This document shows positions 2,507-20,345 of a stretch of 46,326 nt of DNA, piece by piece. The stretch comes from a virus. A program made the translations under genes and the position numbers. Below the pieces are notes generated by a model. The model saw nothing but the letters and a program-made list of their open reading frames with translations. It did not search any database and was not told the DNA's origin. The stretch spans positions 1-46,326 of the IMG/VR virus record IMGVR_UViG_3300017963_000372; one strand, 5' to 3'. Within the stretch, counting starts at the first letter, position 1; the number at the start of each line of letters is the position of its first letter.

Positions 2507-3645
2507 TACATCGCCCCCATCCCGTACCGGGCCAATACCTGATAGATCTCATCGGTGTTGCCGCCCTGGAGCTGCAAGCCGAACGGTGCCCGGTATGTTA
2601 CTTTCTCCACGAACATCAGGCGCGGGTCTGCGTTGGTGGCTGTGTCCGGCACGCGGCGCCCCACCATGAAATCGACGAAAGAGAGCCAGCGCCCGGGCAG
2701 CATCCGCCAGGGCTGGATCGTGGCCTGTGAGGGCGATTGCAGCACGAGGCCTCGGTCCTGGATATAGGCTTGGTACTCGATGTCCGTGGGCGCGGGATAG
2801 TAGTAGATCCCGAGATTGTCCAGGATCATGAACAGCCAGCGGTCATTGAACGCATCGCCCCGGCTTACCACATCGTTGATAACTGTCAGCGCGGGCCGGT
2901 ACTGGTCCTCCAGCGGCAGCACCTGGAGCGTGTTGTCCTGGAAATCGTCAGGACCGAAGGCCAGCCAGGAGACGTTGGGCCCGGCAGCCAGGACGTTGGC
3001 GATCTTGAGGCTGGCATTGATGGTCGCACCCGCCGCCGCTGTATACGGGTAGTTGAGCCAGTGGTAATATCCTTTGCAGTCCAGTGTCACCGTAACGGCT
3101 CGGTCTGCCTGGCTGGTAAAGCTCTCCGTTGCCTTGGGCCAGGCATTGTTGGCGAGGTATACGTCGCGGATGTATTCTGCCTCTGTATCTGTCACCGTGC
3201 CGGCGCTGATGACCTTGGGCAGGATCCCGTAGTGGTTCTGGCTGTCAGAATCATCCGCGTTGGCAGTGATGGATTGGCCGCCGCTTGCCGCGCCTGCCGC
3301 CCCTGCGACCAGCGGCGAGTACATCACATAGGCCCGATTACAGGCGTCCAGGAGCGGGCCAAGCGTGACCGTCAGCGGTGCGACATTGACGCGGATCTGG
3401 TCGATGAACCCTTCCCAGACTACATCCAGCGCCGAGGCGTACACTTCGATGTGGCGCCCGAGCCCATCTTCTAGCCAGTTCTCCGCCTGCGTGCGCGTGG
3501 TGGATAGCGTCATCTGCGCCGTGTCATAGCCGCCGAAGGCTGTAATCGTGTGCGTGTAGGTGTCCGGCACGACGCGCCGATAGAATTGGAAATCTGACCG
3601 GCTCAGGCGGTCCCAGACGCTGACGGCGATAATTGGCGGCTTCAC
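2506..3645 (-). CDS. Tail tip/baseplate protein, 379 aa
   Basis: The GTG start at 3645 overlaps the preceding stop (GTGA). The N-terminal third is rich in beta strands (YTHTITAFGGYDTAQMTLS, GRHIEVYASALDVVWEGFID) and resembles the ring-forming N-terminal domain of siphovirus tail-associated or baseplate hub proteins. These begin with a coordinate-like domain that carries a W-x-G-F-I strand. The rest is mixed alpha/beta with long hydrophilic stretches and ends in a segment LQLQGGNTDEIYQVLARYG. No lysozyme or peptidase motif is visible. Its position after the Dit-like/LamG protein, in transcription order, matches the tail hub (Tal) slot. The function is inferred from order and strand pattern. 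Confidence 0.6.
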   Translation of the reverse strand: MKPPIIAVSVWDRLSRSDFQFYRRVVPDTYTHTITAFGGYDTAQMTLSTTRTQAENWLEDGLGRHIEVYASALDVVWEGFIDQIRVNVAPLTVTLGPLLDACNRAYVMYSPLVAGAAGAASGGQSITANADDSDSQNHYGILPKVISAGTVTDTEAEYIRDVYLANNAWPKATESFTSQADRAVTVTLDCKGYYHWLNYPYTAAAGATINASLKIANVLAAGPNVSWLAFGPDDFQDNTLQVLPLEDQYRPALTVINDVVSRGDAFNDRWLFMILDNLGIYYYPAPTDIEYQAYIQDRGLVLQSPSQATIQPWRMLPGRWLSFVDFMVGRRVPDTATNADPRLMFVEKVTYRAPFGLQLQGGNTDEIYQVLARYGMGAM

Positions 3646-6600
3646 CTGTTGCCTCTCATGCTGAGATAGTGAGACTGGCGATAGACATTGAGGCTGTGGC
3701 CCATAGCAGCATGGGCCACTTTGGTTCCGGCGTGCCTCTCCGTCAGGAACCAGAGCCGTTGGTCTGCGTTCTCCTGGAGGATGGCGGGCCGGTTGGCGAT
3801 GGTCTGCGCCAGGCCTGCGAAGTTGTCTGTAGTCCTGAGCTTGGACATGGCCCGCAGGTCATAGCGCGGATGCTCGATGCTGTCCATGTAGAAGTATCTG
3901 CCCTTGCCGCCCCACTCCAGCTCGGCCATTGAGCGGTCGCTAGACAGCGGCTCGTAGGTGCCCGGGATGCCGGTGAAATCCCCGGCCCACTCATCCACCG
4001 GAATCAGGATCAGGTCACAAATACTGATGTCTGCAACGCCCAACGTGTTTTGGGCAAAGACATAGAAGACGATCTCTGCGTTCTCGCTGAGTTTCACCAA
4101 GTCTGTAGGTGGCACAACCAGGCGCCCGAAATCAATCAGGGTAAACAGGTCAAGCTGAGGCGTCGGGATATACTCGGTCATCGCGAACGTGCTGCCGCTG
4201 CCGCCGTAGAGCATCCCGAGTGATAGCAGGATATCGCCCTCGGTGCCCAGGTCTTGCTCCATGCGCAGGAAGGCGCGGTACTCACCGAAAAATTGCCAGG
4301 TATACGCCGCGTCAATGGTCCAGCGGCAGACCCAGTTGGTTGGGCACGGATTAGCGTAGACGTTGCGGCCCGTGGGATAGATATAGCGTAAGGTAAAACT
4401 TGCACCCGCCGCAGCGTTGACCTCGCAGGTGATAAAGGGCGGATTCTGCTCGTCTGCTGCATTGAGGTAAGCCACAAAGTCTTCACCACGGCTCAGACTG
4501 CGCAGACCTGTAATGACCCGGCTGGTGTAGAGGTTCGGGTCATACACGCCGCCGTCATGGTCCGACTCGTTATACATCTGGAGCATCAGCGAGGCGGCGA
4601 TGTCGCCCGGCACGTCCTCATCCTGGATCTCGATGTAGGGCCAGGAGATCGTATAGACGTGGCGATTCTGCTGCCAGGGTGGTGTTGGCGTGCCGACAGC
4701 GGTCACGCGATAGCGCACCCACCAGGCCGTCACAACGGGCGCGGTTGGGTCTCCAGTCGCTACAGTCAAATCTTCTGGATTCCAGTCGCCGCCCCCCATG
4801 TCCTGGTCCCAGTGTACCGACTTGACATCCGTCGTGTCGAAGGCTACGCCGGTCATCAGACCGTCAGCGTTGGTATTGTCCTGCACGTCAAACGCCGTCC
4901 AGGCTGCAAGAACCGTATCATAATATTCCCACACACCCGCCGTGATGCCGGTCTGGGCCGTGGAGATGTCGAATACCACATTGGAGAACGGCCCGGAGTT
5001 GACAAGCGTATCATCGCAACCGAAATAAACTGCATCATTGGCCGCAGGGACAGGCGGCAGGAGCAGGTGAGGCAGGTTCGCGGTCTGTAGGTTGATGCTC
5101 CAATTCGGCCCGCTGTTGTCCTCGAAATAGACATGCGTCAGGCCCGCCGTCTTGAGCGCGTTGACGATGTAGGGCTGCACCAGGCAGGAGGTGGACTGGT
5201 CTACCTCGATGGTGCAGTCGCATTCCCACATATTCGGGTCGCCAATGCTCGCCGGGTCTCCGCCGGCCAGGTTCCAGGTCTTGTCGCCGTGGCCCTCATA
5301 GATCCAGATCGCCGCCGTGTTGGCGTCCACCTCGGGCAACGTGCAGCGCTCTGGCGGCGTGAAGTTCACGCCGGGCGTGTAGCGGAGATTGTCCGACAGC
5401 CGCGCCCAGCCGATGTAGCCGTCCCAGGTGCGGTCATTGTTGGCCCGGTTGCCGATGTAGAGATTATGCGTCTGGTCGTTCCCGTAGTTGCCATTTTTCT
5501 GGATCTGCGAGAAGTAGGCCGTTGTCCATACCCCATCCACGGCAATATCTAGGTCTGCGGTACTGGCGCCCTGGTCCTCCACGGCGAGAACGACGTGATG
5601 CCATTCCCCATCAGGCGTCCATTCCTGCGGTCCCGTGATGGCGATGCCGTCCACGCCCGGCCCGCCGTTGACGTAGCCATACAGGCCGCCATTGACACCA
5701 TCCACGCCAAAGAACCAGCCATCCGTATTCGTGGGATAGTTGCGCTTCCAGAAGATCATGCCGAGGCTGTTCTCACCATAGCTGTCAGCCAGCACCCACG
5801 CCTCGGCAATCATATCGTTCCCGTCAGCAGGCAGGTCTTGGATCAGCGCATAGTCGCCAGCATTGACGTAGCTGGTCAGCGCATCGAATGTCAGGTAGGC
5901 CGGGAAGCACTGCTCGAGGTCGCCGCACTGGCGGCCAAAGGATTGCTCGCAGTCGCAGGCCCAATCCGCACCGGTGATGGTCCCGTCTGCCGTCCCAGGA
6001 TTGGCGCGGTTATAGGTGGTGGCCCCTGTACCTTCTGTAATCCAGATGCCGACGCTATCCCGCTTGACCTCTGGCAGCTCGCAGCGCAGGTCGAACGATG
6101 GCCAGACGGGCTCATCGTAGAGGTGAACCCAGCCGATGTCACCTTCCCAGGTGGCGCCGATGATGCCGTGCCGGTCGCCTATAATGAGGTTGAGCGCGGC
6201 GTCCGAATTATAGGCGCCCGCGCCTGCCTGTTGTGTATGATAGGAGCTGACTTCCGTTCCGTCAATGAAAAGACGCGGGAGGCCCAGGTATGGGTAAATC
6301 ATGGCTACGTGATGCCATAGACCATCAGGAGTAAAATCATCGACCCCGCTATACGCTATGGCAGGGGTAGTAGCACGACTAATATAGATGCACAACCCAT
6401 ATGTTTCCTGAATATAGAACTGCCAACCATTCGGAGGATTGTACTTTGTCACAATCAGGCCATAATTACCAGGCCCACTAGACCCCAATCCCCACCCATC
6501 CGCCTTTACCCAGGCCTCGACCGTAAAACCGTTGCTCGATGCACCGATGGGCAGGTCATCCAGGCTCGCATCACTGCCGCAGTTCACATTGTCGCCGCTG

Positions 6601-7151
6601 ACGCCGAACTCCAGATAGCTGGGCCAGCAGTAGTAGTTTTCCGGTGCGCAGGCCTCGATACACGTCGGGATCCCCGGCGCGGTCTCCAGCCACGGGCCAC
6701 GCTCCAGGACCAGGACGGGCGTCATCAGCGCCCGGTTCGCCTTCTGGACAAAGACCTGGCCGAAGGGATTGTTGTCCTCCGGCACCGCGCCGCTGTGGAT
6801 GACCGCATAGCGCCGGTTGGACTCGCACGATGCCTGTACTGCCAGATAGACCGGCGAACTCTGCCAGTTCTCCACCCAGTAGTCCATCGCCAGCCGCAGC
6901 ATCCGCCGCAAGTCCTGCATGGCGCGGATTACATCATCCTGGCTGGACTTCTTGACGGTAAACTCTACCGTCTCCTCCGTGGTCACTTCCCGGAAATACT
7001 GGAGACGGCGGTAGTCGGCCAGGCTGGATTGGGAAAAGCTGGCATCCACGCCGCCCGCGATGGGCGTCCATTCGCCAACGTGGATCCCGGTCTCATCCAG
7101 TAGGTTGATGCGGTCTGTGGCCGTGCCTATGCTACAATGCGCCAGTGGCAT
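3642..7151 (-). CDS. Large tail-tip protein: Dit-like N-terminus with two LamG domains, 1169 aa
   Basis: The start overlaps the tape measure stop (TAATG at 7151). Residues 1-170 (INLLDETGIHVGEWTPIAGG, then VEFTVKKSSQDDVIRAMQDLRRML) resemble a distal-tail-type domain. Two successive LamG jelly rolls follow, roughly residues 175-395 and 415-610. Each opens with YLEFGVSGDNV or YLTFDALTSYV, contains WHHVAMIYP or WHHVVLAVE, and closes with an ADWACDCE / WECDCT cysteine signature. The C-terminal 500 residues are a further beta-rich region. The size and double lectin module suggest a carbohydrate-binding tail tip. The paired CxC ends of the repeats show internal duplication. Confidence 0.8.
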   Translation of the reverse strand: MPLAHCSIGTATDRINLLDETGIHVGEWTPIAGGVDASFSQSSLADYRRLQYFREVTTEETVEFTVKKSSQDDVIRAMQDLRRMLRLAMDYWVENWQSSPVYLAVQASCESNRRYAVIHSGAVPEDNNPFGQVFVQKANRALMTPVLVLERGPWLETAPGIPTCIEACAPENYYCWPSYLEFGVSGDNVNCGSDASLDDLPIGASSNGFTVEAWVKADGWGLGSSGPGNYGLIVTKYNPPNGWQFYIQETYGLCIYISRATTPAIAYSGVDDFTPDGLWHHVAMIYPYLGLPRLFIDGTEVSSYHTQQAGAGAYNSDAALNLIIGDRHGIIGATWEGDIGWVHLYDEPVWPSFDLRCELPEVKRDSVGIWITEGTGATTYNRANPGTADGTITGADWACDCEQSFGRQCGDLEQCFPAYLTFDALTSYVNAGDYALIQDLPADGNDMIAEAWVLADSYGENSLGMIFWKRNYPTNTDGWFFGVDGVNGGLYGYVNGGPGVDGIAITGPQEWTPDGEWHHVVLAVEDQGASTADLDIAVDGVWTTAYFSQIQKNGNYGNDQTHNLYIGNRANNDRTWDGYIGWARLSDNLRYTPGVNFTPPERCTLPEVDANTAAIWIYEGHGDKTWNLAGGDPASIGDPNMWECDCTIEVDQSTSCLVQPYIVNALKTAGLTHVYFEDNSGPNWSINLQTANLPHLLLPPVPAANDAVYFGCDDTLVNSGPFSNVVFDISTAQTGITAGVWEYYDTVLAAWTAFDVQDNTNADGLMTGVAFDTTDVKSVHWDQDMGGGDWNPEDLTVATGDPTAPVVTAWWVRYRVTAVGTPTPPWQQNRHVYTISWPYIEIQDEDVPGDIAASLMLQMYNESDHDGGVYDPNLYTSRVITGLRSLSRGEDFVAYLNAADEQNPPFITCEVNAAAGASFTLRYIYPTGRNVYANPCPTNWVCRWTIDAAYTWQFFGEYRAFLRMEQDLGTEGDILLSLGMLYGGSGSTFAMTEYIPTPQLDLFTLIDFGRLVVPPTDLVKLSENAEIVFYVFAQNTLGVADISICDLILIPVDEWAGDFTGIPGTYEPLSSDRSMAELEWGGKGRYFYMDSIEHPRYDLRAMSKLRTTDNFAGLAQTIANRPAILQENADQRLWFLTERHAGTKVAHAAMGHSLNVYRQSHYLSMRGNR

Positions 7152-9958
7152 TATGACCCCCTCATGGCATCGCGTACCGTCTGCCGGACGCGGCCCTCGA
7201 ATAGCGCCATATCCATCCCGCTGTTGATGGTGGTTGGCCCAAAGTGTAGATCGAAGTTGTTGACAGTGGAAGCACCAGCCCCCGCCATAGCAGGCATGGC
7301 CATTTGTGGAAACGAGAATCCAGATAGGGCAAGACCAGCAACCTCAAGATTCTGTGCCAGAATCCCCGCTGCGTCTGCTGCACCCGTGACAGATGCAGCT
7401 AGCTCATCCATCTCTGGAACGCCGCCCGACTCAACCTTGTCCTTCCAGTACCAAGCACTCTCAAGATAGCCGATCAGCTCATCAACTGCATCAATGACAG
7501 ACTGAATATCCTCTACCATATCAGTAGCCATTGTATCTACTGCATTGGTTGCGGATTCGATAGCAGAAAGCAAGCCGCCTTCCCCCAGGATTTTGTCAAT
7601 TAACTCCTGGAGCTTGCCTATCATCTCGTCCATCGCATCCTTCCAGGCGCTTTTGAGTGCGGGAATTGTCTCGTTTGTGATCTTCTGTAATGCCCTTCGC
7701 CATTCGTTTGTTTTGCTGATCATGCTATTGAGCGCCCCGATAACAGCCGCGGCCATCGTGATAAAGGCTGCCTGCAACATAGGCAGTGTGACATTGGTTA
7801 TGTATTCTAGCAACAGCTTCCACTCGTTTGTAACCCGAATCATCTCTTGAAGTTGGAAGAGGATGTACTCGCTCACGACCTGGAACATGGCTTGGAGGTC
7901 GGGCAGCGTCTCCTCTGTGATCTCAATGAGCAATTCCATCCAGGTGGTGGTCTGCTCAATCCACTGCTCAATCTCGCCTAGAAAGACCTTGGAGACTTTC
8001 TCAACAGCGCCCACCAGTCCCTTCTCCAGCGCCTTGATGATACTGCCCAGGGTCAGGTCTGCCAGCGCCCCGATAATCTTCTTGGGCAGGTCGCCAAAGA
8101 GCTTAATGATGGTGCTCACCAAGTCGGTGATAATCGAGTTGCCCACCAGCTTGTCAAAGAGCCCCTCAAACCAGCCGATGACAGAATCCACGAAATCCTG
8201 TACTGCCTGCTTGGCCGTGTCGAAAGCGCCGCTCACCGCATCGCTGATGGTATTCCATGCCTCAACCACCGTCTGGATGGCGACGGGTAGATCCTCCTGG
8301 AACCACTGCACCACATCCTTGACGAAAGGCTCAAGCGTGTTCTTCCAGAAGTCAGTTAGGAATGTGCGGATGCCGCCCCAGTCCTCCGTCCAGGCTGCGG
8401 CGAGTAGACCGATGGCCGCGATGACCAGCGTCACCGGGTTGAGTAGCGCGGAGAGCGCCGCAGCAATCGCGGCGATGGTGGCCGCGATAGCCAGGGCTGC
8501 CAGTACCGCGCCGATGGCGATGATTGCCGCCCTGAAGGCTTCCCAGTGCTCATTGACAAAGGCGAGCGCCTTGGGCAGATTCTCGCCCAACCATGCCCAG
8601 ACCTCCTTGAGAATCGGGACCACGCTTCCCTGGATAAAGGCCATCGTGTCTACCAGTGCGGGATATAGGGCATTGGTCCAGAGCTGGGCCAGGTATTCAA
8701 CCGCGATGGGCAGGTTGACGCCGATCCATTCCGCGATATTGCCAAAGACCGCAGCGATGGCCGGTCCCTTGTCAGCCACAAAGTCGCCAAACTTGCGGAT
8801 CAGGTCTGTCAGCACCGGCAAGAATGCGTCGCCAATCTGGATCTTGAGCGTTTCCAATACGCCCTGGAGGGCTTCCATCGCGCCCTCGAAGGTGTTGGTT
8901 CTGGCTGCGGCCACCTCCTGCGCGGTGCCTGCGTTGCCCGTCGCGTCGGCCATCGCATACCAGCCATCCACGCCCTCATTGAGTAGCGTGTTCATGGCCC
9001 TCATGCCGTAGGTGCCCGCAAGAGTCTGGATGGCTACGTTGCGCTGCTCCTCTGTCAGTCCAGCCATGCCATTACTCAGGGATTCGATAATCTCAGGCAT
9101 GGACTTCATAGTCCCGTCTGCATTGTAGAGCTCTACATTGAGCTCGTCCAGCGTATCCTTGACGCTCTTGGTCGGGCGCAGGAGGTTGGTCATCATGGAG
9201 CGTAGCGCGGTGCCTGCCTCTGAGCCTGAGATGCCCCGCGTGCTGAGAATGGCCAGGGCATTGTTGGTATCCTCCAGGCTGAATCCGAACTGAGCCGCAA
9301 CCGGGCCGATGTTCTTGAGTGCCGCAGTCAGGTCGCTCACCTCGGCCACCGAGGCATCCGCCGCCTGGACAAAGCTGTTGCTGATTCTGACCGCATCCTC
9401 TGAGCCCAGGCCAAAGGTCGCCATCGCCACAGCCACGGCATCGCTTGCCGCTGCCAGGTCTAGCTCAGACGCCGCTTGCAGGTCCACCGCCGCCCGGAGC
9501 GCACCGCTCAATTCAGTAGTCCCGGCAAGATAGCCTTGCATATCCCCGAAGATGTCATTGGTATCCAGGCCCGCCTTGTACAGCCCGGTCATGGCATCAG
9601 CGGCCTGGCTGGCAGAGACGCCCACCAGCGCAGTATCCGCGCCCACGGCGAGCGCCGTGTCTTTCAGGTCTTGGAGAGAGGCATCGGCCTCGCCAGCGGC
9701 CACACTCAGGATGGCGATCTGGCTTTCGAAGTCTGCCGCCGCCTTGACGCCCGTTGTCGCCACAGCGGCCATGCCCGCGCCCAGGGCAGCCACGCCGCCC
9801 GCTGCGACCTTGGCTGCCGTTGCGCCAAAGCCCAGCAGCTTGGTGCCAAAGCCACTTGTGCTCTTGGTAGCGTTGCCGATGTCGCTGTTGTACTTGGACA
9901 TGGCCTTGTTCCACTGACGCATGTCGAGTACGGCTTCGAGCCCTATCTGTTCAGGCAT
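7151..9958 (-). CDS. Tape measure protein, 935 aa
   Basis: The gene is long and helix-rich, and lies directly after the tail assembly chaperones, which identifies it. The N-terminal 350 residues match the TP901-type tape measure core: Ala/Gly-rich FGTKLLGFGATAAKVAAGG, then the block SFVQAADASVAEVSDLTAALKNIGP and the hallmark SGSEAGTALRSMMTNLLRPT. A hydrophobic stretch lies near residues 485-535, as expected for a protein ejected into the host membrane. The distal half is amphipathic helix with repeated Trp-containing motifs (NEWKLLLEYITN, NEWRRALQKITN). By the usual 1.5 angstrom per residue rule it would specify a tail of about 140 nm. This is structural and catalytic motifs are absent. Confidence 0.93.
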   Translation of the reverse strand: MPEQIGLEAVLDMRQWNKAMSKYNSDIGNATKSTSGFGTKLLGFGATAAKVAAGGVAALGAGMAAVATTGVKAAADFESQIAILSVAAGEADASLQDLKDTALAVGADTALVGVSASQAADAMTGLYKAGLDTNDIFGDMQGYLAGTTELSGALRAAVDLQAASELDLAAASDAVAVAMATFGLGSEDAVRISNSFVQAADASVAEVSDLTAALKNIGPVAAQFGFSLEDTNNALAILSTRGISGSEAGTALRSMMTNLLRPTKSVKDTLDELNVELYNADGTMKSMPEIIESLSNGMAGLTEEQRNVAIQTLAGTYGMRAMNTLLNEGVDGWYAMADATGNAGTAQEVAAARTNTFEGAMEALQGVLETLKIQIGDAFLPVLTDLIRKFGDFVADKGPAIAAVFGNIAEWIGVNLPIAVEYLAQLWTNALYPALVDTMAFIQGSVVPILKEVWAWLGENLPKALAFVNEHWEAFRAAIIAIGAVLAALAIAATIAAIAAALSALLNPVTLVIAAIGLLAAAWTEDWGGIRTFLTDFWKNTLEPFVKDVVQWFQEDLPVAIQTVVEAWNTISDAVSGAFDTAKQAVQDFVDSVIGWFEGLFDKLVGNSIITDLVSTIIKLFGDLPKKIIGALADLTLGSIIKALEKGLVGAVEKVSKVFLGEIEQWIEQTTTWMELLIEITEETLPDLQAMFQVVSEYILFQLQEMIRVTNEWKLLLEYITNVTLPMLQAAFITMAAAVIGALNSMISKTNEWRRALQKITNETIPALKSAWKDAMDEMIGKLQELIDKILGEGGLLSAIESATNAVDTMATDMVEDIQSVIDAVDELIGYLESAWYWKDKVESGGVPEMDELAASVTGAADAAGILAQNLEVAGLALSGFSFPQMAMPAMAGAGASTVNNFDLHFGPTTINSGMDMALFEGRVRQTVRDAMRGS

Positions 9959-10163
9959 GTTTGCTCTTCCTCTTGGCCTCGCGCTCCGCTTCCTGCGATT
10001 CCCAGGCAGCCATCTCTCGCTCTGCTACCACCAGCGCCATCATATACGCCTGGTCATCTTCACTAAGCGCCCAGAACTGCGACGGTGCCAGTCCGAACCT
10101 AGCCGCCGTCTGGAGCTGCGTCAACCGCTGGCTGGCCCGCCACGGACCCGGCTTGATCCGCAA
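9951..10163 (-). CDS. Tail assembly chaperone second frame (gpT-like extension)
   Basis: This frame overlaps the gpG-like gene by 65 bases and the tape measure gene by 8. Its sequence (ARFGLAPSQFWALSEDDQAYMMALVV, then a charged helix ending KRKSK) is like the C-terminal T extensions of tail chaperones. The only upstream start is a TTG without an SD, so independent initiation is unlikely. The frame is +1 (or -2) relative to gpG and stays open upstream to about 10273. The codon TTT followed by C at 10200-10197 would allow a Phe-tRNA to slip +1 from UUU to UUC. A frameshift product of about 251 residues is inferred, not shown. Confidence 0.65.
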   Translation of the reverse strand: MRIKPGPWRASQRLTQLQTAARFGLAPSQFWALSEDDQAYMMALVVAEREMAAWESQEAEREAKRKSKHA

Positions 10164-10707
10164 GTCCGAGAGCGAGGTTCCCTTGTAGGAAATCGCGAAA
10201 GGAGCTCTCGGCCCTCGCCAGCACCTCCTCGTTGACCTCCGCGCCGGATGCCAGCGCCATGATGCGGATCACATCCCTGGTGCCCCCGATGACCTCGGTC
10301 TTGACGTAGTGGACACGGCGCTGGAGCGGATTCTCTGGCGGTTCCAGGCCCAGGAATTGCTGCTCTGTGATCCAATCGCCATCCCACAGGTCAGGAATCT
10401 CCACCCGCACCGCCTTGAGTGCCACGGCGTTAAGCAGCTTCTCATTGAGCGCGGTCTCTGAAACTTCCCGCTCTGCCTGGTAGGATTCCCAGGCCTCGGC
10501 GTGCTCCTTGTACCACTCCGGGTTGTGCTGCTTGGCTGCGGCCATATCCTCCGCCGTTATCTCTACCTCGCGCTCGCCGCCGCTTGCGGTCTGCTCGGTG
10601 TAGGTCGGTGCAGGCGGGTGTTGGTGCGCGTTGCGGATCTGGTCCAGCAGCAACGGGATCGGGATAATGTCAATCTCGATCCCCCGCTCGGTCGTGTACT
10701 GTTTCAT
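10099..10707 (-). CDS. Tail assembly chaperone (gpG-like), 202 aa
   Basis: The ATG at 10707 is preceded by AAAAGGGGGCAGC. The protein lies between the tail tube and the tape measure genes, the fixed place of the tail chaperones that coat the tape measure before tube polymerisation. It is acidic and helical with a central Glu-rich segment (EREVEITAEDMAAAKQH) and a regular fold after residue 90 (AVRVEIPDLWDGDWITEQQ, TRDVIRIMALASGAEV). The last 35 residues are low-complexity and overlap the T frame. That is typical of the region where ribosomes shift frame to make the longer G-T product. Confidence 0.75.
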   Translation of the reverse strand: MKQYTTERGIEIDIIPIPLLLDQIRNAHQHPPAPTYTEQTASGGEREVEITAEDMAAAKQHNPEWYKEHAEAWESYQAEREVSETALNEKLLNAVALKAVRVEIPDLWDGDWITEQQFLGLEPPENPLQRRVHYVKTEVIGGTRDVIRIMALASGAEVNEEVLARAESSFRDFLQGNLALGLADQAGSVAGQPAVDAAPDGG

Positions 10708-10790: not shown

Positions 10791-12296
10791 CTAGTCCTCA
10801 CCCTGGAGGATGACCGCTGTCCCGCCAAGCCCGGGCTGGTACACTTCCCCAGCCGCGAAAACCTGATTGGTATGGCAGCCATGCACAGAGTTGAGGCCAC
10901 TGTTGGCGACGTCGGTCATCAGTTCCCAGTCAGCGCCGCCGTTGCGTGTGCGGTACACAGACCCCACCGGCGTTGCGTTATCGTGCGTGAGGAAGCCCAC
11001 CAGATCGTTGACAAACTCAACATCGGTCAGGTCGCCCACCTCATCGCCCGGGAAGTCACGCCGTGTCCAGGTCGTGCCGTGGTTGTTGGAGTAGTAGAGC
11101 TCGCCGCCAGAGTCGCCTGCCCACCAGATGCCGCCCTCGTCATTCTCGGTACAGCAGAGCAGGTTGTTCCCGCCGCCGGTTGCCGTGGCCAGCGTCCAGG
11201 TATCGCCGCCGTCGCTGCTGACAAGCACCGTGTCACTGTCGCCCACGGCCATCCCGTTCTCAGCGTCGGAGAACCAGATCTCGTTGAGGTCGTTGCTGGT
11301 TGGCGCACCGGCTCCGCCTGCCTGCCGCGTCCAGGATACGCCAAAGTCCTCAGAGAAGTAGATGTAGCCGCTATCCAGGCACAGCCAGATGTGATAGGAG
11401 TCCAGGACGAAGAGCGCCCCTTCGCGGTTGGCGCCGAGGTTGTTCACCGTGCCGACTGCAACCAGCGTCCAGTTGGCACCCCAGTCGTCCGAGTAGGCGA
11501 CTTCCATCGGGTTCGCGCCGTCGGTTTCCCTGGCCACCAGCAGCCGGTAGGTAGTAGCGTCAATCTGGAAGATGGCGCAGCTCAGGATGTCCTCACCTGC
11601 CGCGAACGGATCCGCCGCGCAGACGGTCCAGGTCGTGCCGCCGTCCTGCGTATACCAGACGTTGCCGAACTCTGCCGGCGAGCCTGCCGGGCTGTCAGCC
11701 ACGGCCACGCCATAGGAGCAGGAGGGCAGCGCGGTGTTGCAGTCCGAAGCGCACAGCGCAGAGCTGATGAAGTGGATGTCATTGACCGCGCTGTACTCCG
11801 CGATCTGCTGCCGTCCCAGGGTCATCGCCCGCGCCCTGAGCAGAGGCGGCCATGCCGTGATCTCAAAGCTCTGGGTCGAGGTGGTGTCCTCTTCCCTGGC
11901 CGCCATGCCCTGCAAGCCCTCGGTCCCGATCTTGGCCCGTTCCAGGAGAAAGCTGCGGGTCGTGTTGCCGAACACGTCGAATGGCGGGCACAGCGAGCCG
12001 TTCAGGTAGAACGGAAACTCGCAGTTGCCGCTTTCGATGATGCGCTCCAACCAGTCAGCGTCCTCCTCGATGAGCGTGGTAACGGTGGTCGTTACCGGGT
12101 CTGGCGGGTTGTACGTTGCCCCTCGCACTTCCCAACCGGAGCCATCAGACTTCAGGCAGCGGATGATCTCATTGATGCTCTGTCCCGGCGCTTCTACATC
12201 GTCCACATCATGGCAGCCAAGATAGCGCATCGTGGTATTGGGGCCATCGGGTTGCACCCAAAGGCTCCATTTTCTACGGGTAAAGGGTTCTGCCAT
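10791..12296 (-). CDS. Major tail tube protein fused to a BNR/Asp-box beta-propeller, 501 aa
   Basis: The start ATG follows GGAGGTAGTAAA. Residues 1-180 look like a siphovirus tail tube subunit: RKWSLWVQPDGPN, then DPVTTTVTTLIEEDADWLERIIESG, FEITAWPPLLRARAMTL. From about 195 on there are six Asp-box repeats of the S-x-D-x-G-x-x-W type, near residues 217, 270, 316, 360, 403 and 450 (for example YTQDGGTTW, FSEDFGVSW, SSDGGDTW). Six such repeats make one complete propeller of the sialidase/Ycf48 type. The propeller would be displayed along the whole outside of the tail. At least nine cysteines are present. The tail-tube identity rests on the N-terminal pattern and on gene order. Confidence 0.8.
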   Translation of the reverse strand: MAEPFTRRKWSLWVQPDGPNTTMRYLGCHDVDDVEAPGQSINEIIRCLKSDGSGWEVRGATYNPPDPVTTTVTTLIEEDADWLERIIESGNCEFPFYLNGSLCPPFDVFGNTTRSFLLERAKIGTEGLQGMAAREEDTTSTQSFEITAWPPLLRARAMTLGRQQIAEYSAVNDIHFISSALCASDCNTALPSCSYGVAVADSPAGSPAEFGNVWYTQDGGTTWTVCAADPFAAGEDILSCAIFQIDATTYRLLVARETDGANPMEVAYSDDWGANWTLVAVGTVNNLGANREGALFVLDSYHIWLCLDSGYIYFSEDFGVSWTRQAGGAGAPTSNDLNEIWFSDAENGMAVGDSDTVLVSSDGGDTWTLATATGGGNNLLCCTENDEGGIWWAGDSGGELYYSNNHGTTWTRRDFPGDEVGDLTDVEFVNDLVGFLTHDNATPVGSVYRTRNGGADWELMTDVANSGLNSVHGCHTNQVFAAGEVYQPGLGGTAVILQGED

Positions 12297-12307
12297 TTTA
12301 CTACCTC

Positions 12308-12823
12308 CTAGATCGCATGGCCCGAAGCCTTGCGGGCGTCACTCATGGCTCGCTCCATCGCCCGCCGGAACTTGGGGCCGTGCTGCTTCTCAATCTCCTC
12401 ATCGAAGTGACGGGCCTCGGTGCCAGGATGCTGGACGTAGGGCCGGTGTACTATCGGCCCGGTCGGTCCTCCTGCCTTGCTGCCAATGACCCTCGGTGCA
12501 GTCTTTGGCCTGTAAGACCCTTTACCACCCCACTGGAACCGCAAGGCCCGCGCCCGAACAGGGAAGATCGGGTGAGGCCTGGTCCCATCGTTCACATAGC
12601 CGTAAATCTCGTCGTCGGTGCCTACAAAGACCTCCGGCCCCCGTGGCCGGTAGTCCACGAGCTTTTCAAACTTCACATCGTGTTCCCAGGTCTCCGTCGT
12701 TTTCTCAAAGTCGCGCAGGAGCTCATCACCGTACCGATCCGCCTGCTTCATAATAGCATCGCGGAAGGCTTTATCCTTGAACCGCTCCGGCTTAATCTCC
12801 TTGACAACTACTGCACCGGGCAT
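12308..12823 (-). CDS. HK97 gp10-like head-tail joining / tail completion protein, 171 aa
   Basis: The middle of the protein carries a signature common in the HK97-gp10 family: EVFVGTDDEIYGYVNDGTRP, then a charged linker and VQHPGTEARHFDEEIEKQ. Proteins of this family sit at the neck and complete or terminate the tail before it joins the head. The N-terminal 55 residues form amphipathic helices. The start overlaps the end of the upstream glycosyltransferase by 16 bases, and the tail tube gene follows after 11 bases. This is the expected order connector - gp10 - tube. I see no unusual residues or truncation. Confidence 0.8.
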   Translation of the reverse strand: MPGAVVVKEIKPERFKDKAFRDAIMKQADRYGDELLRDFEKTTETWEHDVKFEKLVDYRPRGPEVFVGTDDEIYGYVNDGTRPHPIFPVRARALRFQWGGKGSYRPKTAPRVIGSKAGGPTGPIVHRPYVQHPGTEARHFDEEIEKQHGPKFRRAMERAMSDARKASGHAI

Positions 12824-13437
12824 CCATACACCTCCGGCAGCGCGGCCATAAGCTGGTCAAACAGCCGCGCCTTGGTCTGCGGGTCGTGGTTCCCGTCGCT
12901 CCTGCCCTGGCCTTCCCTGCGGTACAGGTAGGAGGCCGGACCCTCGATGTGCTGGCCCTGGTAGCCATGCGCTGCCAGCCGCAGGGTCATGGCCCAATCC
13001 TCGCGGCCCTCCGTCAGCGTCTCCGGGTAGCCGCCAGATTCGAGCCAAGCCTGGCGCGGGAAACAGATCGCCGCGTGTGCCAAGTTCTTGGTTTTGGCCT
13101 TGTCAAAGTCCCAGGCGGGCATCTCCATCACCGCGCCCTTGTGGCCGTAGGCGTAGACGCGCAAATCCCCATACACGAACTTGCCAGGATCGGCATGTTC
13201 CATCAATAGCTCCAGGTGCCAGGGCTCTATCAGGTCATCGCCATGAACCACGGTGATGTACTCACCCTGGGCCAGTGCAATCCCCTCGTTGAGCATGGCG
13301 GGTGTGCCCTTCGCGTCCGTGTCTGTCATCACGCCGATCTCGTAGCCGTGATAGTTCTGGAACTGCACTGACTTGATGCACTCGTTCAGGTATTTGCGGT
13401 GCGCCATGCTACACGGGACAATCACTGACAGATTCAC
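12808..13437 (-). CDS. Family 2 (GT-A) glycosyltransferase, 209 aa
   Basis: The GTG at 13437 gives MNLSVIVPC, the first strand of a GT-A fold. The nucleotide-sugar diphosphate motif is HGDDLIEP near residues 65-72 (D-D metal site). The acceptor-side acidic motif is EGREDWAMTLRLAAHG near 142-157. No membrane segment is present, so it should act in the cytoplasm on a soluble acceptor or nucleotide-linked intermediate. It is shorter than typical family members but contains the whole catalytic core. It lies among neck genes, separated from the main glycan cassette by the 398-aa structural gene. That placement suggests its activity is tied to virion assembly. Confidence 0.85.
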   Translation of the reverse strand: MNLSVIVPCSMAHRKYLNECIKSVQFQNYHGYEIGVMTDTDAKGTPAMLNEGIALAQGEYITVVHGDDLIEPWHLELLMEHADPGKFVYGDLRVYAYGHKGAVMEMPAWDFDKAKTKNLAHAAICFPRQAWLESGGYPETLTEGREDWAMTLRLAAHGYQGQHIEGPASYLYRREGQGRSDGNHDPQTKARLFDQLMAALPEVYGCPVQ

Positions 13438-14664: not shown

Positions 14665-14971
14665 GCTCGGATATTTCCCTCCAGAGAATCCTGCCCCCTG
14701 AACTCAACAGAACCGCCGCCCCGCTGAAGGCCAGCGGGTAGAGCGGCCACGGAAACCACAACCAGAACGGCAGCACCAGGAGCGCCGCCCAGAGCGTGCA
14801 GCACCAGAAGCAATTGAGCTGCTTCGACCAGAACGGGCTATACTCATCGGCCCAGTCCCTAAGTCCCCGGAATACATCGCCCGGCCCGTACTCGTAGTAG
14901 ACCGCCGCCGCGATGCGCCAGGTGGCTAGGCAGGCGGCTAAGAAGTCAATCAGCGTCCACTCGCCGCGCAT
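14657..14971 (-). CDS. DUF1360-like membrane protein, 104 aa
   Basis: I start it at the ATG at 14971 rather than the longer frame from 15076, whose first 35 residues are Arg/Cys/Trp-rich and antisense-like. The product opens with a hydrophobic helix (DFLAACLATWRIAAAVYYEYGP), then RGLRDWADEY, a CFWCC signature and a long hydrophobic region of about 35 residues (LWAALLVLPFWLWFPWPLYPLAF). This order is that of DUF1360 proteins, phage and Bacillus membrane proteins of unknown function. It overlaps the FkbM gene by 26 bases. A role in anchoring or partitioning the neighbouring sugar enzymes at the membrane is speculation. Confidence 0.7.
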   Translation of the reverse strand: MRGEWTLIDFLAACLATWRIAAAVYYEYGPGDVFRGLRDWADEYSPFWSKQLNCFWCCTLWAALLVLPFWLWFPWPLYPLAFSGAAVLLSSGGRILWREISEHG

Positions 14972-15719
14972 ACAAATCCCCCCATGACAGCGGCCCCTCT
15001 TTCGTGAGCCTGGGCACCATCCACTCCAGCAGCATCTTGCTATCCATCCAGAACGGAGCCACGAACTGGCCCGCATTGTTCAGGCAGTAGTTCCATTCGT
15101 ACTCCGCCAGGCTGTCTACATGCGCGATGGCCTCTCTCGGGATCCAGTCCTGGTGAAACTCCATATTAAGCCCGTTCACCGGCGTACTCAGTCCCTTGAG
15201 CGCGGTGTCTTCGTGGCCCTCCACGTCCACCTTGATAAACTTGGGAATCCCATAGATGTTTATCAATGCGTCCAGTGTCGTGGTCTCCACCTGGCGATCC
15301 ACGCAGGCCACCTTGTTATAGAATCGCTGGTGCGCGCTGGTGGTCATCCATGATGTATCCATGCTGCTCAGGTAGGGCAAGTGGCGCTGGATGCTGATGC
15401 TGGCCTTGCCCCGCCGGTCACTGATAGCCATTCCGTAAGGGATGACCATCTTGTCCTCTCCGAACTTCCAATAGAACTCGGGCACGAACTCGGGACCGAA
15501 CCGGAAGAGCGGATCGACAGCGAGCACCTTGGCCCCAAGCTGCCGGAAGATCCAGGTCTTGCGGCCCCGGTTGGCGCCGATGTCAAAGACAAAATCGCCG
15601 CCGTGAATCATCAGCCTATACGCCGGGATGCTCTGCTGCTCCGCGTCCTCTGAGAGCTGCCACCAGCGCTGCATGGTGTACTTGTCGTCGTAGGTTCTGC
15701 CCGTATTAGCCAACAGCAT
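14946..15719 (-). CDS. FkbM-family SAM-dependent methyltransferase, 257 aa
   Basis: The SAM-binding motif I is VFDIGANRGRKTWIF near residues 44-58, with the acidic residue after strand 2 in VLAVDP near 67. The FkbM hallmark comes later: TTLDALINIYGIP followed by FIKVDVEGHEDTALKG near 158-173. Members O-methylate sugars or sugar-derived groups in polysaccharides and antibiotics. The start overlaps the end of the upstream glycosyltransferase by 14 bases. With the cassette around it, the probable substrate is a sugar hydroxyl on the glycan built by the neighbouring transferases. Methylation of virion glycans is inference. Confidence 0.85.
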   Translation of the reverse strand: MLLANTGRTYDDKYTMQRWWQLSEDAEQQSIPAYRLMIHGGDFVFDIGANRGRKTWIFRQLGAKVLAVDPLFRFGPEFVPEFYWKFGEDKMVIPYGMAISDRRGKASISIQRHLPYLSSMDTSWMTTSAHQRFYNKVACVDRQVETTTLDALINIYGIPKFIKVDVEGHEDTALKGLSTPVNGLNMEFHQDWIPREAIAHVDSLAEYEWNYCLNNAGQFVAPFWMDSKMLLEWMVPRLTKEGPLSWGDLYARRVDAD

Positions 15720-17016
15720 CCCTCACATCGCTGACCAGGATGGTACCATCCTGCCCGCTGCCTTTCAGCCGTGACCAGTCCAGGCCGTGCTCCTCTGCCA
15801 GCTTCTGCGCCGGTCCCGTGATGCTGGGCACCGTCACCTCTGCGACTTCCTCAATCTCACGGTCTGGCTCTTCCATGACCTCGGGCGCCCAGGCCTCGCT
15901 ATCCCGGATGGCGGGCGCTTCCGCTGGCGGCTCTGGCGGGGCGGGTGGTGGCGGTGCAGCCGCAGGCGGTTCCACGATCTTGAAATCCCGGCCCTGGTTC
16001 ACAGACCGGAACCAAGGAACATCCTGCGGCCTCACGCCCTGGGTGCCAGTCTCGTCAAACTCCACGAGCCCACCCGCGCCCGGAATGTGATAGTGCGTCC
16101 GGGATGGCTGGGCAACTACGCGGAAATCTCCGCGCCTGCCGCCCACGTACATCATCAGCGTCCGTTCATCTTGTCCTGGCACTGGTTCCCTCACAATCTG
16201 CGCTTGCGGCACGCCGCCGTGAAGCGGGCGCCGGGCGCCTTTTGGCGATCTTCCCCCACAACAGCCCACCGGATACCTCCCATTGTATGAGTCTACGTGC
16301 AAGTCTCGCATGGCCGCATAGGCGCGGTCCCATTTGTCCTGATTCGCTTTGAGCCACTGCAGGCGGCCCGTTGGATGGCGCCGGTAGTAATAGAGCGGGT
16401 CGGGCACCCTCTGCCCGCAGACGCCCATCTCGCCCAGCGCGATCCAGTATTCCCAGTCCTCCAGGCCTTGCGTCATATCCAGCCGCCAGCCGCCTACCCG
16501 TTCCCAATCCGCCTTCTTGTGCAGGCAGCCCACAGTCATGAACGTCGCGCTGAGCAGGGTCTTGAAACTATACTCGCTGGCCTGGTAGACAAGGCCATAG
16601 TCCATGCCGAACATGACAACATCCGTATAGAGGATGTCGTTCCCCTTCTGGCGCTTGGGCCACTCCTCCAGGAGCCGCCCGACCGCCGTCCGGGCCAGCT
16701 TGTCATCCGCATCAAGCGGCAGGAGGAGCGGCGCCCGGGCCTCCTCTGCGGCCTGGTTCCTGGCAGCGCTGACGCCCTGGTGCTCCGCATCGTACCAGCG
16801 CAGCATCTGGCTTGCCGTGGCCGCCTTCCACGTCTCTCTGAGCGGCCCCAGGTCTACCGGGCTGTTGTCATTGACAATCACCATCTCGAATACATCGCGC
16901 CGCGTCTGGCCGATGACCGAGGCGATGGTCTCATGCAGCCATTCCAGCCCCTGCCGGTCTTTGACCAGCGCGGGCGTGATAATGCTCACCTGGAGATTGC
17001 GCAGCTTCTGGCTCAT
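15706..17016 (-). CDS. Family 2 glycosyltransferase with a C-terminal E3-binding-like domain, 436 aa
   Basis: Residues 1-240 are a GT-A transferase: VSIITPALVKDRQGLEWL, VNDNSP, LPLDADDKLART (metal site), GLEDWEYWIALGE (acidic motif). Residues 270-335 form a second small domain (LMMYVGGRRGDFRVVAQPS, FDETGTQGVRPQDVPWF) like short phage structural proteins. A Pro/Ala/Glu-rich linker follows to about 390. The last 40 residues (ITGPAQKLAEEHGLDW, KGSGQDGTILVSDVRDAV) match the peripheral subunit-binding domain of 2-oxoacid dehydrogenase E2 proteins, a protein-docking fold. So a transferase appears tethered by a flexible arm to a docking module. It overlaps the epimerase gene by four bases (ATGA). 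Confidence 0.85.
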   Translation of the reverse strand: MSQKLRNLQVSIITPALVKDRQGLEWLHETIASVIGQTRRDVFEMVIVNDNSPVDLGPLRETWKAATASQMLRWYDAEHQGVSAARNQAAEEARAPLLLPLDADDKLARTAVGRLLEEWPKRQKGNDILYTDVVMFGMDYGLVYQASEYSFKTLLSATFMTVGCLHKKADWERVGGWRLDMTQGLEDWEYWIALGEMGVCGQRVPDPLYYYRRHPTGRLQWLKANQDKWDRAYAAMRDLHVDSYNGRYPVGCCGGRSPKGARRPLHGGVPQAQIVREPVPGQDERTLMMYVGGRRGDFRVVAQPSRTHYHIPGAGGLVEFDETGTQGVRPQDVPWFRSVNQGRDFKIVEPPAAAPPPPAPPEPPAEAPAIRDSEAWAPEVMEEPDREIEEVAEVTVPSITGPAQKLAEEHGLDWSRLKGSGQDGTILVSDVRDAVG

Positions 17017-18032
17017 GTGTGCGCCTCCCCTGCCCGGTACTCCTCAATCATATCCTTGAGCGTGACGTGTAGCGGCGTGTCAGGCACCCAGCCCACGAGC
17101 TGCTTGAGAAGCGAGACGTCAGCGGCCCGCCTCGGATAGCCGTCTGGCTTTGACTTGTCATAGGCCACGTCAATCTGTCCCTCTCTGCCCGACAGGCTGA
17201 TAATCTCATGCACTAGCCGCCGGATGCTCATGTCCCTATCATGCCCGATGTTGACCGTCACCGGCCTGTCAGGCCAGCGGAGCAGTTCATAGCCCAGGTG
17301 CTTGTCCATCAGGAGAACGAGCACCCTGGCGATGTCTCGGGCGTCTACTAGGACGCGGGTCTGGCGGCCGGTGCCCCAGACCGTGACGGGATTCTCGCCC
17401 TCCAGCACGCGCCGGATCAGCGCCGGGGCGACGTGGCTGGTCTCCTCATCGTAGTAGTCCCGTGGCCCGAAGGCGTTGAAAAAGCGCACGATGATAGACG
17501 GTATGCCATGTTCCCGGTGCAGGTGCTTGACCATCTGCTCACCTGTCCACTTTGCCACGCCGTAGCCGTGGTTGGTTGGCTCCGGGTTGCCCACGTCGCC
17601 CGCACTCTCAGACGTCGGGACCGGCGCATCGTGCGGGTAGACACAGGCAGTTGAGACGTAGACGAAGAGCTTTGGCTTGGCGGCCTTGACCGATTCGACC
17701 ACGCCGCCGGTGATGGCCAGATTGGTCATCAGCATCTCGTAATGGTGGCCCCGGTTGTACTCGATGCCCGTCACCTTGGCCGCGAGGTGAAAGACGCAAT
17801 CCATGCCGGGTAGGATGGCGGGCTTTTGATAAGCGAGATTTTCTTGCCGTACCTTCACCCGCCCCGTTTCCATAGCCTGCGCGATATTGGCATGGCTGCC
17901 CCGGCTGAAGTTGTCAATCACGGTAATCTCTGTGTTCCGCTCTGTGAGCGCGTCCACCAGATGGCTGCCGATGAATCCGGCCCCTCCTGTGACAAGCACC
18001 CGCTCCAGCGGCCTCCTGTCAATCATAACCAT
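17013..18032 (-). CDS. NAD-dependent nucleotide-sugar epimerase/dehydratase, 339 aa
   Basis: This is an extended SDR protein with NAD motif VLVTGGAGFIGSHLVDAL near residues 12-29, the VFHLAAKVTG strand, YVSTACVYP, and the catalytic Tyr-x3-Lys in GYGVAKWTGEQ near 156-166. The Cys in STACVYP and the C-terminal KPDGYPRRAADVSLLKQLVGW are like GDP-mannose epimerases and GDP-fucose synthases. A GDP-sugar is therefore the best guess at the substrate. The enzyme would supply an activated sugar to the neighbouring transferases. It is full-length. The start is preceded by AAAGGGGGCAGA, an SD variant also used by the sulfotransferase gene. Confidence 0.85.
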   Translation of the reverse strand: MVMIDRRPLERVLVTGGAGFIGSHLVDALTERNTEITVIDNFSRGSHANIAQAMETGRVKVRQENLAYQKPAILPGMDCVFHLAAKVTGIEYNRGHHYEMLMTNLAITGGVVESVKAAKPKLFVYVSTACVYPHDAPVPTSESAGDVGNPEPTNHGYGVAKWTGEQMVKHLHREHGIPSIIVRFFNAFGPRDYYDEETSHVAPALIRRVLEGENPVTVWGTGRQTRVLVDARDIARVLVLLMDKHLGYELLRWPDRPVTVNIGHDRDMSIRRLVHEIISLSGREGQIDVAYDKSKPDGYPRRAADVSLLKQLVGWVPDTPLHVTLKDMIEEYRAGEAHT

Positions 18033-18042
18033 TCTGCCCCCT

Positions 18043-19779
18043 TTATGGTAGATCCTCCAGCATCGCCCACAGGCTCTCCAGGCGATGCGCCCAGGTGTGC
18101 CGCTCGTGGGTCATCACCCGGCCTGCGGCCCCGATGGCCTCGCGCTCCTTGGGATGCTTCAGATAGTACCGCGCCTTCTGCTCCATCTCCGCAAACGTCT
18201 CGAAGGCGATGCACGTCTGCCCGTCCACATAGCCGTGCTGCTCCATGCCCGCGAACCGCTGCACCAGCGCCGGGCAGCCCGTGGCCGTGATGTTGTAGAG
18301 CCGGTCTGACGTGTAGCCCCACAAGTCCTTGCTCTGGCTGATGCTCAGCGTCATCTTGGCCCGCGCCATGAGCGCCGCGTTGTCGGCATGTTTCTCTGAT
18401 GTGCTCTGGGTCTTGAGACCCACACGAGGCCAGCCCGGCCCGTAGAGCGCGAACTTGATGCCCTTGGCCTTGCTCATGGCCAGCACCGCATCGCGCCGGA
18501 ACTCCGCCTCTGGAAACACGCCCTCGCCGTACAGCGCCCCGGTGAAGAGTACATCCGGCCCATCCGGCTCTAGCCGCTCCTGGTCCAGATACTCCTGCTC
18601 GATGCCTATGGGCCAGTAGCCGACGCCGATCCCCTGCGCGGCGTACTCCGGGAACCACGTCGGGCTGACGATGAGTTGCAGATGTACCGCCCGGGCGATG
18701 TCGTAGTGGAACGGTGTAAGCGGATAGTGCGTATCCCCGTCCCAGTTCACATGCAGCATCCACGGGAACTCGTTGCGCAGCCTGGCGATGGTGGCGGGCA
18801 TGATGTTGTTCTCTCGCTGCGCCTGCCAGAAGATCAGGTCCGGCGTGAACTCGCGCACCTCATTCATGGCAAAGTCCTGGAACCCAGAGCGCCCGTGCTC
18901 CTTCACTGCATCCGTCTGGTTGACCTGCTTGGCCGGCCCGTAGGCTGCCAGCGCGTCTATCAGCGCCGTCCTGGTCGGTGCTCCTGGGAACATGCCCGAC
19001 TTGAACCGCATGGAGCGCAGGTTGCCCTGCATGGCCTTCCTGAGCACCCGGCGAGGCGGTGCGCTGATCCATTCGTCCCTCGTGGGAATCCTGGAACGCG
19101 GCCAGGCCCGGTTGAACTTCTCCAGGTCGGGATGGATGCGCCCACCCTCTCGGGCGTTGCGCCAGGGCGTATCTGAGTTGACCTGCCTGAGCTCATCCTC
19201 ATGTTCCCGGTCTGTGACCGAGCACCCCGGCGCGGCCACGACGGACCAGCCCATCTCCCAGATGCGCAGGCTCAGGCGCGTATCCCCGCCATAGGTATAC
19301 ATGCCGTCTTCGCCCCACCAGCCCGCCAAGTCGCCCAGCCAGCGCGGCGTCATGCAGCATTGGCCGTAGACGTAGCCGAAGGCGCCCTGTACCCGGGCCT
19401 GGTTGGGGTTGTTGCGCCGCTGGAACCTGTGCCCGAAGGCGGCCTGCCCTATCTCGGGATTGGTGCGCAGGAACCAGTAGGCCCGATGGATGGTATCATT
19501 GTCAAAGGTTATGTCATCGTTGCCTATGGTTACATAGTCACCGGAGGCGGCATAGCAGCCATCATTATAGGCCCGGATGGCGCCCTTGAGCTTGCCGTGC
19601 TCGATGAGCGTGATGTCATCCTGTTCCCGGCACCATTCGATTGTGCCGTCTGTGGATCCGCCGTCCACTAGCACGATCTCCAGGCTCAGGTCTTTGGCGC
19701 TGTTCCTGGCACTGGCGACCATCTCCTTGAGGAGCGGCAGGCGGTTGTAGGTTCCTGCGACTACTGAGACTTGAGTCAT
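18043..19779 (-). CDS. Two-domain glycosyltransferase (GT2 plus GT-B, CgeB-like), 578 aa
   Basis: Residues 1-235 are a GT-A transferase: VSVVAGTYNRLPLLKEMV, VLVDGGSTDGT, IGNDDITFD (metal site), GEDGMYTYGGDTRLSLRI (acidic motif). Residues 255-578 form a GT-B domain of the CgeB / Glyco_trans_1_2 type, seen in WPIGIEQEYLD, VLFTGALYGEG, FALYGPGWPRVG and the donor-site block DLWGYTSDRLYNITATGCPALVQR. Such proteins can add two sugars in sequence. No membrane segments are visible. The ATGA overlap with the methyltransferase at 19776 and close spacing to the epimerase show a single translational unit. Confidence 0.85.
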   Translation of the reverse strand: MTQVSVVAGTYNRLPLLKEMVASARNSAKDLSLEIVLVDGGSTDGTIEWCREQDDITLIEHGKLKGAIRAYNDGCYAASGDYVTIGNDDITFDNDTIHRAYWFLRTNPEIGQAAFGHRFQRRNNPNQARVQGAFGYVYGQCCMTPRWLGDLAGWWGEDGMYTYGGDTRLSLRIWEMGWSVVAAPGCSVTDREHEDELRQVNSDTPWRNAREGGRIHPDLEKFNRAWPRSRIPTRDEWISAPPRRVLRKAMQGNLRSMRFKSGMFPGAPTRTALIDALAAYGPAKQVNQTDAVKEHGRSGFQDFAMNEVREFTPDLIFWQAQRENNIMPATIARLRNEFPWMLHVNWDGDTHYPLTPFHYDIARAVHLQLIVSPTWFPEYAAQGIGVGYWPIGIEQEYLDQERLEPDGPDVLFTGALYGEGVFPEAEFRRDAVLAMSKAKGIKFALYGPGWPRVGLKTQSTSEKHADNAALMARAKMTLSISQSKDLWGYTSDRLYNITATGCPALVQRFAGMEQHGYVDGQTCIAFETFAEMEQKARYYLKHPKEREAIGAAGRVMTHERHTWAHRLESLWAMLEDLP

Positions 19780-20345
19780 CCCGCCGTCGCCTCCACGTTC
19801 AGGCTGATGTACCGCTGGTCAATCTTGGCCAGGCTGATGTCGTCGTAGTCCAGCGGGTGAATCTGGGACGGATGCCAGCGCCGGATGTCGTGATAGCCTG
19901 CCGTGCCCAGCATCCAGGCCAGGTATTCATAGTCGAATGAGACATAGTGCGTGTTGGCCTCGTAGTCCTGCCGCCCGTGCAGCGGCCCGGTGATGCGCCA
20001 CATGCTGACACTATCGTACAGGTACAGTTCTGCCAAGATCATAAAGTCCGGCACGGAGACCCTGAGCATACCGCCCGGCTTGAGCACCCGCCGCCACTCC
20101 TCCAGAACGGTGAGGATGTGCGGCCTGGGGATGTGCTCCAGGACGTGCGCGGCATAGATGAGATCCACGCTGCCATCCTCGAAGGCGTCCAGGTTCTCCA
20201 CGTCGGCCACCACGTCAGGCTTGACCTCTGGCCTGCTGTCAACGTGCGTGAATCCTGGCAGGCGACGGTGCCCGCAGCCCAGATGTAGCATGACTGGCTT
20301 GGCAGTCTCAAGCCAGCACGGTCCATTCAAGTAGTCACTTGTCAC
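19776..20345 (-). CDS. Class I SAM methyltransferase (Methyltransf_11 type), 189 aa
   Basis: Motif I is VMLHLGCGHRRLPGFTHVD near residues 18-36, followed by VADVENLDAFEDGSVDLIYAAHVLEHIPR and LEEWRRVLKPGGMLRVSVPD. These are the consecutive motifs of class I methyltransferases often found in sugar biosynthesis loci. The start is GTG at 20345 within GGGGGCAGAGGTGA, overlapping the sulfotransferase stop. The C-terminal part (YVSFDYEYLAWMLGTAGYHDIRRW) is the typical family ending. Substrate is unknown; the neighbours point to a sugar intermediate or glycan. Two methyltransferases in one cassette suggest two distinct methyl positions. Confidence 0.85.
   Translation of the reverse strand: MTSDYLNGPCWLETAKPVMLHLGCGHRRLPGFTHVDSRPEVKPDVVADVENLDAFEDGSVDLIYAAHVLEHIPRPHILTVLEEWRRVLKPGGMLRVSVPDFMILAELYLYDSVSMWRITGPLHGRQDYEANTHYVSFDYEYLAWMLGTAGYHDIRRWHPSQIHPLDYDDISLAKIDQRYISLNVEATAG

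Follow-up and report, generated by a model that had tools for sequence, protein, structure and literature searches.

The window analysed here is the whole of IMG/VR virus record IMGVR_UViG_3300017963_000372 (positions 1 to 46,326; 46,326 nucleotides), which is classed as linear. On its minus strand, genes for the terminase, the portal, protease/scaffold-type and capsid proteins, a glycan-modifying block and two neck proteins are followed by a gene in which a tail tube domain and a β-propeller, both predicted, are encoded in a single uninterrupted open reading frame (ORF), and then by genes for a 202-aa chaperone, the tape measure and a Dit-like protein. The features of this region are as follows.

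12308..12823, minus strand: neck/tail completion protein (weak phrog_5 match; position kept in relatives)
10791..12296, minus strand: tail tube-propeller fusion gene, 501 aa (ORF; AlphaFold2 model)
11823..12296, minus strand: predicted tail tube domain, residues 1-158, with WVQPDGPN motif (Foldseek of residues 1-164 alone)
10794..11822, minus strand: propeller of Ycf48/BNR type, predicted to be seven-bladed, residues 159-501 (Pfam, PDB sequence and fold matches to Ycf48; 28 strands = 7 x 4)
11808..11822, minus strand: strand 159-163, predicted to close blade 7 (1+3 velcro; strand count in the model)
11628..11651, minus strand: Asp-box 1, TQDGGTTW (this and the next five from the motif count in the protein)
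11469..11492, minus strand: Asp-box 2, SDDWGANW
11331..11354, minus strand: Asp-box 3, SEDFGVSW
11196..11219, minus strand: Asp-box 4, SSDGGDTW
11067..11090, minus strand: Asp-box 5, SNNHGTTW
10926..10949, minus strand: Asp-box 6, TRNGGADW
10099..10707, minus strand: tail assembly chaperone (TAC, gpG-like), 202 aa (between tube and tape measure, as in relatives)
9954..10175, minus strand: putative gpT-like chaperone extension in another frame, a probable frameshift product (open overlapping frame; in most relatives)
7151..9958, minus strand: tape measure protein (TMP), 935 aa (Pfam PhageMin_Tail 2e-40; PHROG tape measure 3.6e-90)
3642..7151, minus strand: Dit-like distal tail protein with two inserted LamG domains (Pfam LamG; counterparts in some relatives match SPP1_Dit)

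A preliminary description of this DNA had reported a 501-aa ORF at 10791-12296 with six Asp-boxes, a BNR propeller and a tube-like N-terminus, and had interpreted it as a tail tube subunit carrying a propeller. The observation was confirmed with two corrections, one for the strand, which is minus, and one for the number of blades. The interpretation is also supported, as neither of the two outcomes named as speaking against it, an N-terminal domain that is not a tube or another gene that is the tube, was obtained when the analyses below were run.

The full-length protein was modelled with AlphaFold2 as a single chain on an alignment of 16 sequences (mean pLDDT 86, pTM 0.85), and residues 1-164 were modelled and searched separately to keep the propeller from dominating the matches. 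Alone, these residues did fold as a tail tube subunit in the prediction (pLDDT 81), a β-sandwich flanked by one helix. Tubes of phages, contractile injection systems (CIS), GTA and Hcp dominate among the Foldseek matches listed, which include the 80alpha baseplate model, the PVC and AFP tubes, the NF5 tail tube, GTA, the cyanophage A-1(L) tube, the monocin tube and Hcp. Against solved tubes, the best E value was 6.4e-6 and the best TM scores were about 0.5-0.57, at 6-14% identity; a TM score in this range between two tubes is usual for the tube fold. The order of elements (strands, a helix at 78-88, one strand and two long strands) is the same as in the basic major tail protein (MTP)(PMC8718954). 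When the window ORFs were searched by hmmsearch with the tube model, which is blind to unrelated tube sequences, no second ORF matched. The record may be a fragment, yet its tail module looks complete. Across the tube family, C28, C47, C92, C103, C182 and C186 of the window protein are strongly conserved; two members (L069 and L070) have lost both C28 and C47, three (L019, L055 and L060) both C103 and C186, as though each of these two sets made up a pair.

The six Asp-boxes, at residues 216, 269, 315, 360, 403 and 450, compare with a mean of 0.19 and a maximum of 3 when the protein was shuffled 20,000 times. The BNR, PSII_BNR/Ycf48 and Sortilin families scored above the curated gathering scores in Pfam, and Ycf48 was both the best solved relative in the PDB sequence search and the top PDB fold match of the full model (E 3.5e-12, TM 0.77 on the target), so that the proposed check against Ycf48 propellers did return Ycf48 as the nearest solved fold of the C-terminal part. 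Ycf48/HCF136 and other PSII_BNR propellers therefore represent the sequence family of this domain; however, identity over the fold alignment is 15-19%, and Ycf48/HCF136 is a cellular photosystem assembly factor, not part of a virion. The earlier wording of a six-repeat propeller holds for the Asp-boxes but not for the blades. After residue 158 the model has 28 strands, namely six complete blades of four strands (an Asp-box sits at the C-D turn of every one), three C-terminal strands and strand 159-163. We infer from the model a seven-bladed propeller with 1+3 closure, in which strand 159-163, next to the tube domain, would pair with the C-terminal three to form blade 7, the one blade without an Asp-box.

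The fusion gene sits between the neck genes and the genes for TAC and TMP, and directly before these two is the usual place of a major tail protein gene. The synteny of neck, tube, TAC, TMP and Dit therefore agrees with this identity. Most relatives have kept the frame overlapping TAC (about 74 residues), at about 24-44% identity, and the arrangement resembles that of gpG/gpGT, which is a feature of long-tailed phages. No in-frame slippery site was found near the tube/propeller boundary. There is thus no sign of an undecorated short form, and a mixture of long and short tubes made by frameshifting was rejected.

Further LamG domains were matched by Pfam in the gene at 24137-24982 (minus strand), between the portal and protease-type genes, and in the gene at 1718-2506 (minus strand), at the tail-tip end of the operon. 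The glycan-modifying block (12808-13437 and 14946-21091, minus strand) lies inside the structural operon, between the capsid and neck genes; by reading the sequences, its genes were named as sulfotransferase-like, methyltransferases, three glycosyltransferases and nucleotide-sugar epimerase-like. Glycosyltransferases occur at the corresponding place in many relatives, and in distant relatives such genes follow the capsid gene. The block may serve virion glycosylation or a change of the host surface late in infection.

In 29 records, including the window, every tube that was found carried a propeller, and a tube without one was not seen. The search of IMG/VR with the tube domain, a query not biased towards propellers, gave 18 loci, all 18 with a propeller, and a search with a set of closer neck proteins added four more, again all with a propeller. 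When whole records were scanned with a tube-only profile, four more, all of them distant, proved to have a tube, each time within a frame of about 500 aa that has Asp-boxes. In some distant relatives (L045, L049, L051 and L088), a neck-type gene stands before the scaffold and capsid genes and not beside the tube gene. The capsid protein search reached four MAG contigs, and two of those genomes hold tube-propellers, on contigs binned with an Ardenticatenales bacterium and with Methanothrix, although bins may misassign the host. Scanning of MAG contigs with the tube alignment gave no match (the two tube-propeller contigs were reached via the capsid protein), and a search started from the tube domain of a divergent relative had no match beyond the query. 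Among 400 genomes searched with the full-length model, only an already known contig matched, so a prophage of this kind is not common in the sampled part of the phylum searched.

An unnamed viral protein in BFVD, A0A1P8DJ39 (497 aa), matched the fold of the window protein over its whole length (TM 0.71 and 0.72, 524 columns) and so probably has the same architecture, but it is unannotated and only 17% identical. Such proteins are therefore already in databases, apparently unrecognised as far as could be seen.

Mean pairwise identity among 20 members was 33.3% in the propeller and 29.3% in the tube, the propeller figure being inflated by the structural Gly, Trp and Asp residues of the repeats. 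Between the window and the distant group, identity was 13-17% in the tube and 26-27% in the propeller. Conserved to the same degree as the tube, the propeller is not an exchangeable appendage. The inserts at the Dit position, unlike the propeller, are swapped: the window (3642-7151, minus strand) has two LamG domains and relatives carry other domains. Rax2/Kelch-type propellers occupy this position in L030 (14038-15921) and L023 (9368-11746), the latter also with a CBM_4_9-like match just below the cut-off, and no insert was recognised in L024 (15693-17726) and L029.

Tandem tube-propeller genes were found in L024 (9001-10458 and 10486-11940; the pair is 37% identical) and likewise in L025, the matches of which are indistinguishable, so that the two are probably one virus, and also in L031 (10-1074 and 1121-2575). 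The tandem pairs suggest tails of two tube types or spare decoration.

Taken together, the protein is very probably a siphophage tail tube with a propeller on every subunit, both folds being predicted. The gene would encode the major tail protein of a long-tailed siphophage, with residues 1-158 forming the tube and residues 159-501 a propeller on its outer face. Six propellers would be displayed outwards per presumed hexameric ring, and because every copy comes from one uninterrupted ORF, they are expected on every ring. With 0.15 nm for each of the 935 tape measure residues and 4 nm for each ring, a tail could have about 35 rings and about 210 propellers. Considering all the evidence, the explanation we favour, with somewhat better than even confidence, is that the propellers form a multivalent, low-affinity surface-binding coat. 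They would provide many weak contacts that hold the tail on a conserved cell-surface ligand (a glycan or a peptide), keeping it attached until the tip finds its receptor. This is favoured because the operon carries several other lectin-type domains (LamG in the Dit-like protein and in two more genes) and because host-cell binding has been demonstrated for a tube-borne carbohydrate-binding module (CBM) of 936 phages(PMC6669499). For the adhesive function itself we would put the chances at about even. No ligand-binding residues were identified in the propeller, and a carbohydrate may be the ligand.

The conservation of the propeller can also be read differently. That it is slightly more conserved than the tube is unusual for a host-range adhesin and fits a structural role too, in which contacts among neighbouring propellers, both inside a ring and from ring to ring, would build a ligand-free outer wall that gives the tube stiffness or protection. 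We consider this possible but clearly the less likely reading. Its best argument is that loss of the propeller was never seen and that its conservation matches that of the tube; the predicted closing strand immediately behind the tube domain also suggests a short, stiff joint, and there would be little free space, as we estimate a propeller about 5 nm wide on a surface of about 8 x 4 nm per subunit. In lambda gpV the Ig domain takes part in a contact inside the ring, and activity drops 100-fold once this domain is removed, whereas the Ig domains of T5 and YSD1 stick out loosely and SPP1 can do without its FN3 domain(PMC8718954). It is rather doubtful that the propellers interlock as a regular shell, giving a double-walled non-contractile tail in which the tube protein supplies a sheath-like second wall; if so, the shell would also show hundreds of identical binding faces.

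Two further readings are very improbable. One is that the propeller is an enzyme, a sialidase or another glycan hydrolase, which clears surface polymers along the tail. Asp-box propellers do include sialidases and GH74 enzymes, and both appear lower among the fold matches, but the best of these are to the non-enzymatic Ycf48, and Pfam gave no match to a glycosidase family. The RIP motif is absent in all of 20 members, and the conserved charged residues are mostly Asp-box aspartates. As for the arginine triad of sialidases, no Arg in the propeller is fully conserved in the 20 members (Arg 251, 413 and 449 are partly so). The sialidase-type domain that had been suggested as one option was therefore rejected, with neither the RIP motif nor a glycosidase family match. 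The other reading, hardly to be expected either, is a low-copy protein with a tube fold, such as a tail terminator or tube initiator, which would place propellers on one or two rings only. Terminators and Dit proteins do share a tube-like fold, and a separate terminator gene was not recognised in the window. However, the window would then lack a major tail protein, as no other ORF matches the tube model, the gene lies where that of the major tail protein is usual, and the fold matches are dominated by tubes proper.

No description of a propeller-bearing tail tube was found in the open-access literature, most subscription papers being outside the scope of the search. Three family members used as tblastn queries against known phages either matched part of a propeller only or matched nothing, so phrog_8700 probably reflects similarity to the propeller only. 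One of the proteins matched, a podophage 'outer capsid protein', is not a tube.

The outer decorations of major tail proteins listed in a review are Ig-like and FN3 domains, in agreement with what the preliminary description had said of Ig-like domains as the usual decoration; their role is unresolved, and weak interaction with surface carbohydrates has been proposed for the Ig-like domains(PMC8718954). Lambda gpV, T5 pb6, YSD1_22 and SPP1 gp17.1*, like the window protein, belong to non-contractile tails and have an outward-facing domain C-terminal to the tube domain, but the added domain is small (about 90 residues in lambda) compared with the 340-residue, probably seven-bladed propeller here, and in SPP1 a frameshift gives it to just about a quarter of the subunits(PMC8718954), whereas here the propeller would be on every subunit, in frame. 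In the 936 lactococcal phages, MTP-TpeX carries a BppA-type CBM, so that the tube is likewise decorated by a large binding module; this CBM binds host cells specifically, and some of these phages also have an 'evolved' Dit bearing a binding insert, as in the window(PMC6669499). There, however, the BppA-like module is added by a programmed frameshift and in some members only(PMC6669499), while the propeller is in frame and family-wide. An identity of the 936 MTP-TpeX type was therefore rejected, given the single ORF, the lack of an in-frame slippery site near the boundary and a propeller that is not BppA. T7 nozzle gp12 likewise forms a hexamer in the tail and bears six propellers of seven blades, but it belongs to a short-tailed phage, its propellers gate the DNA channel and it has no MTP-type tube domain(PMC6702177).

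Decorated siphophage tubes are thus already known, and what is new here is a whole propeller as the tube decoration, in every detected member of a diverse, little-known family of uncultivated phages. The whole tail is probably coated, which may aid clinging to the host, and a visibly thick or bushy tail is predicted for electron microscopy. If so, a hexameric tube can accommodate, on each subunit, a domain of twice its own size. Being family-wide and conserved like the tube, the propeller lends itself well to studying the purpose of tail decorations.
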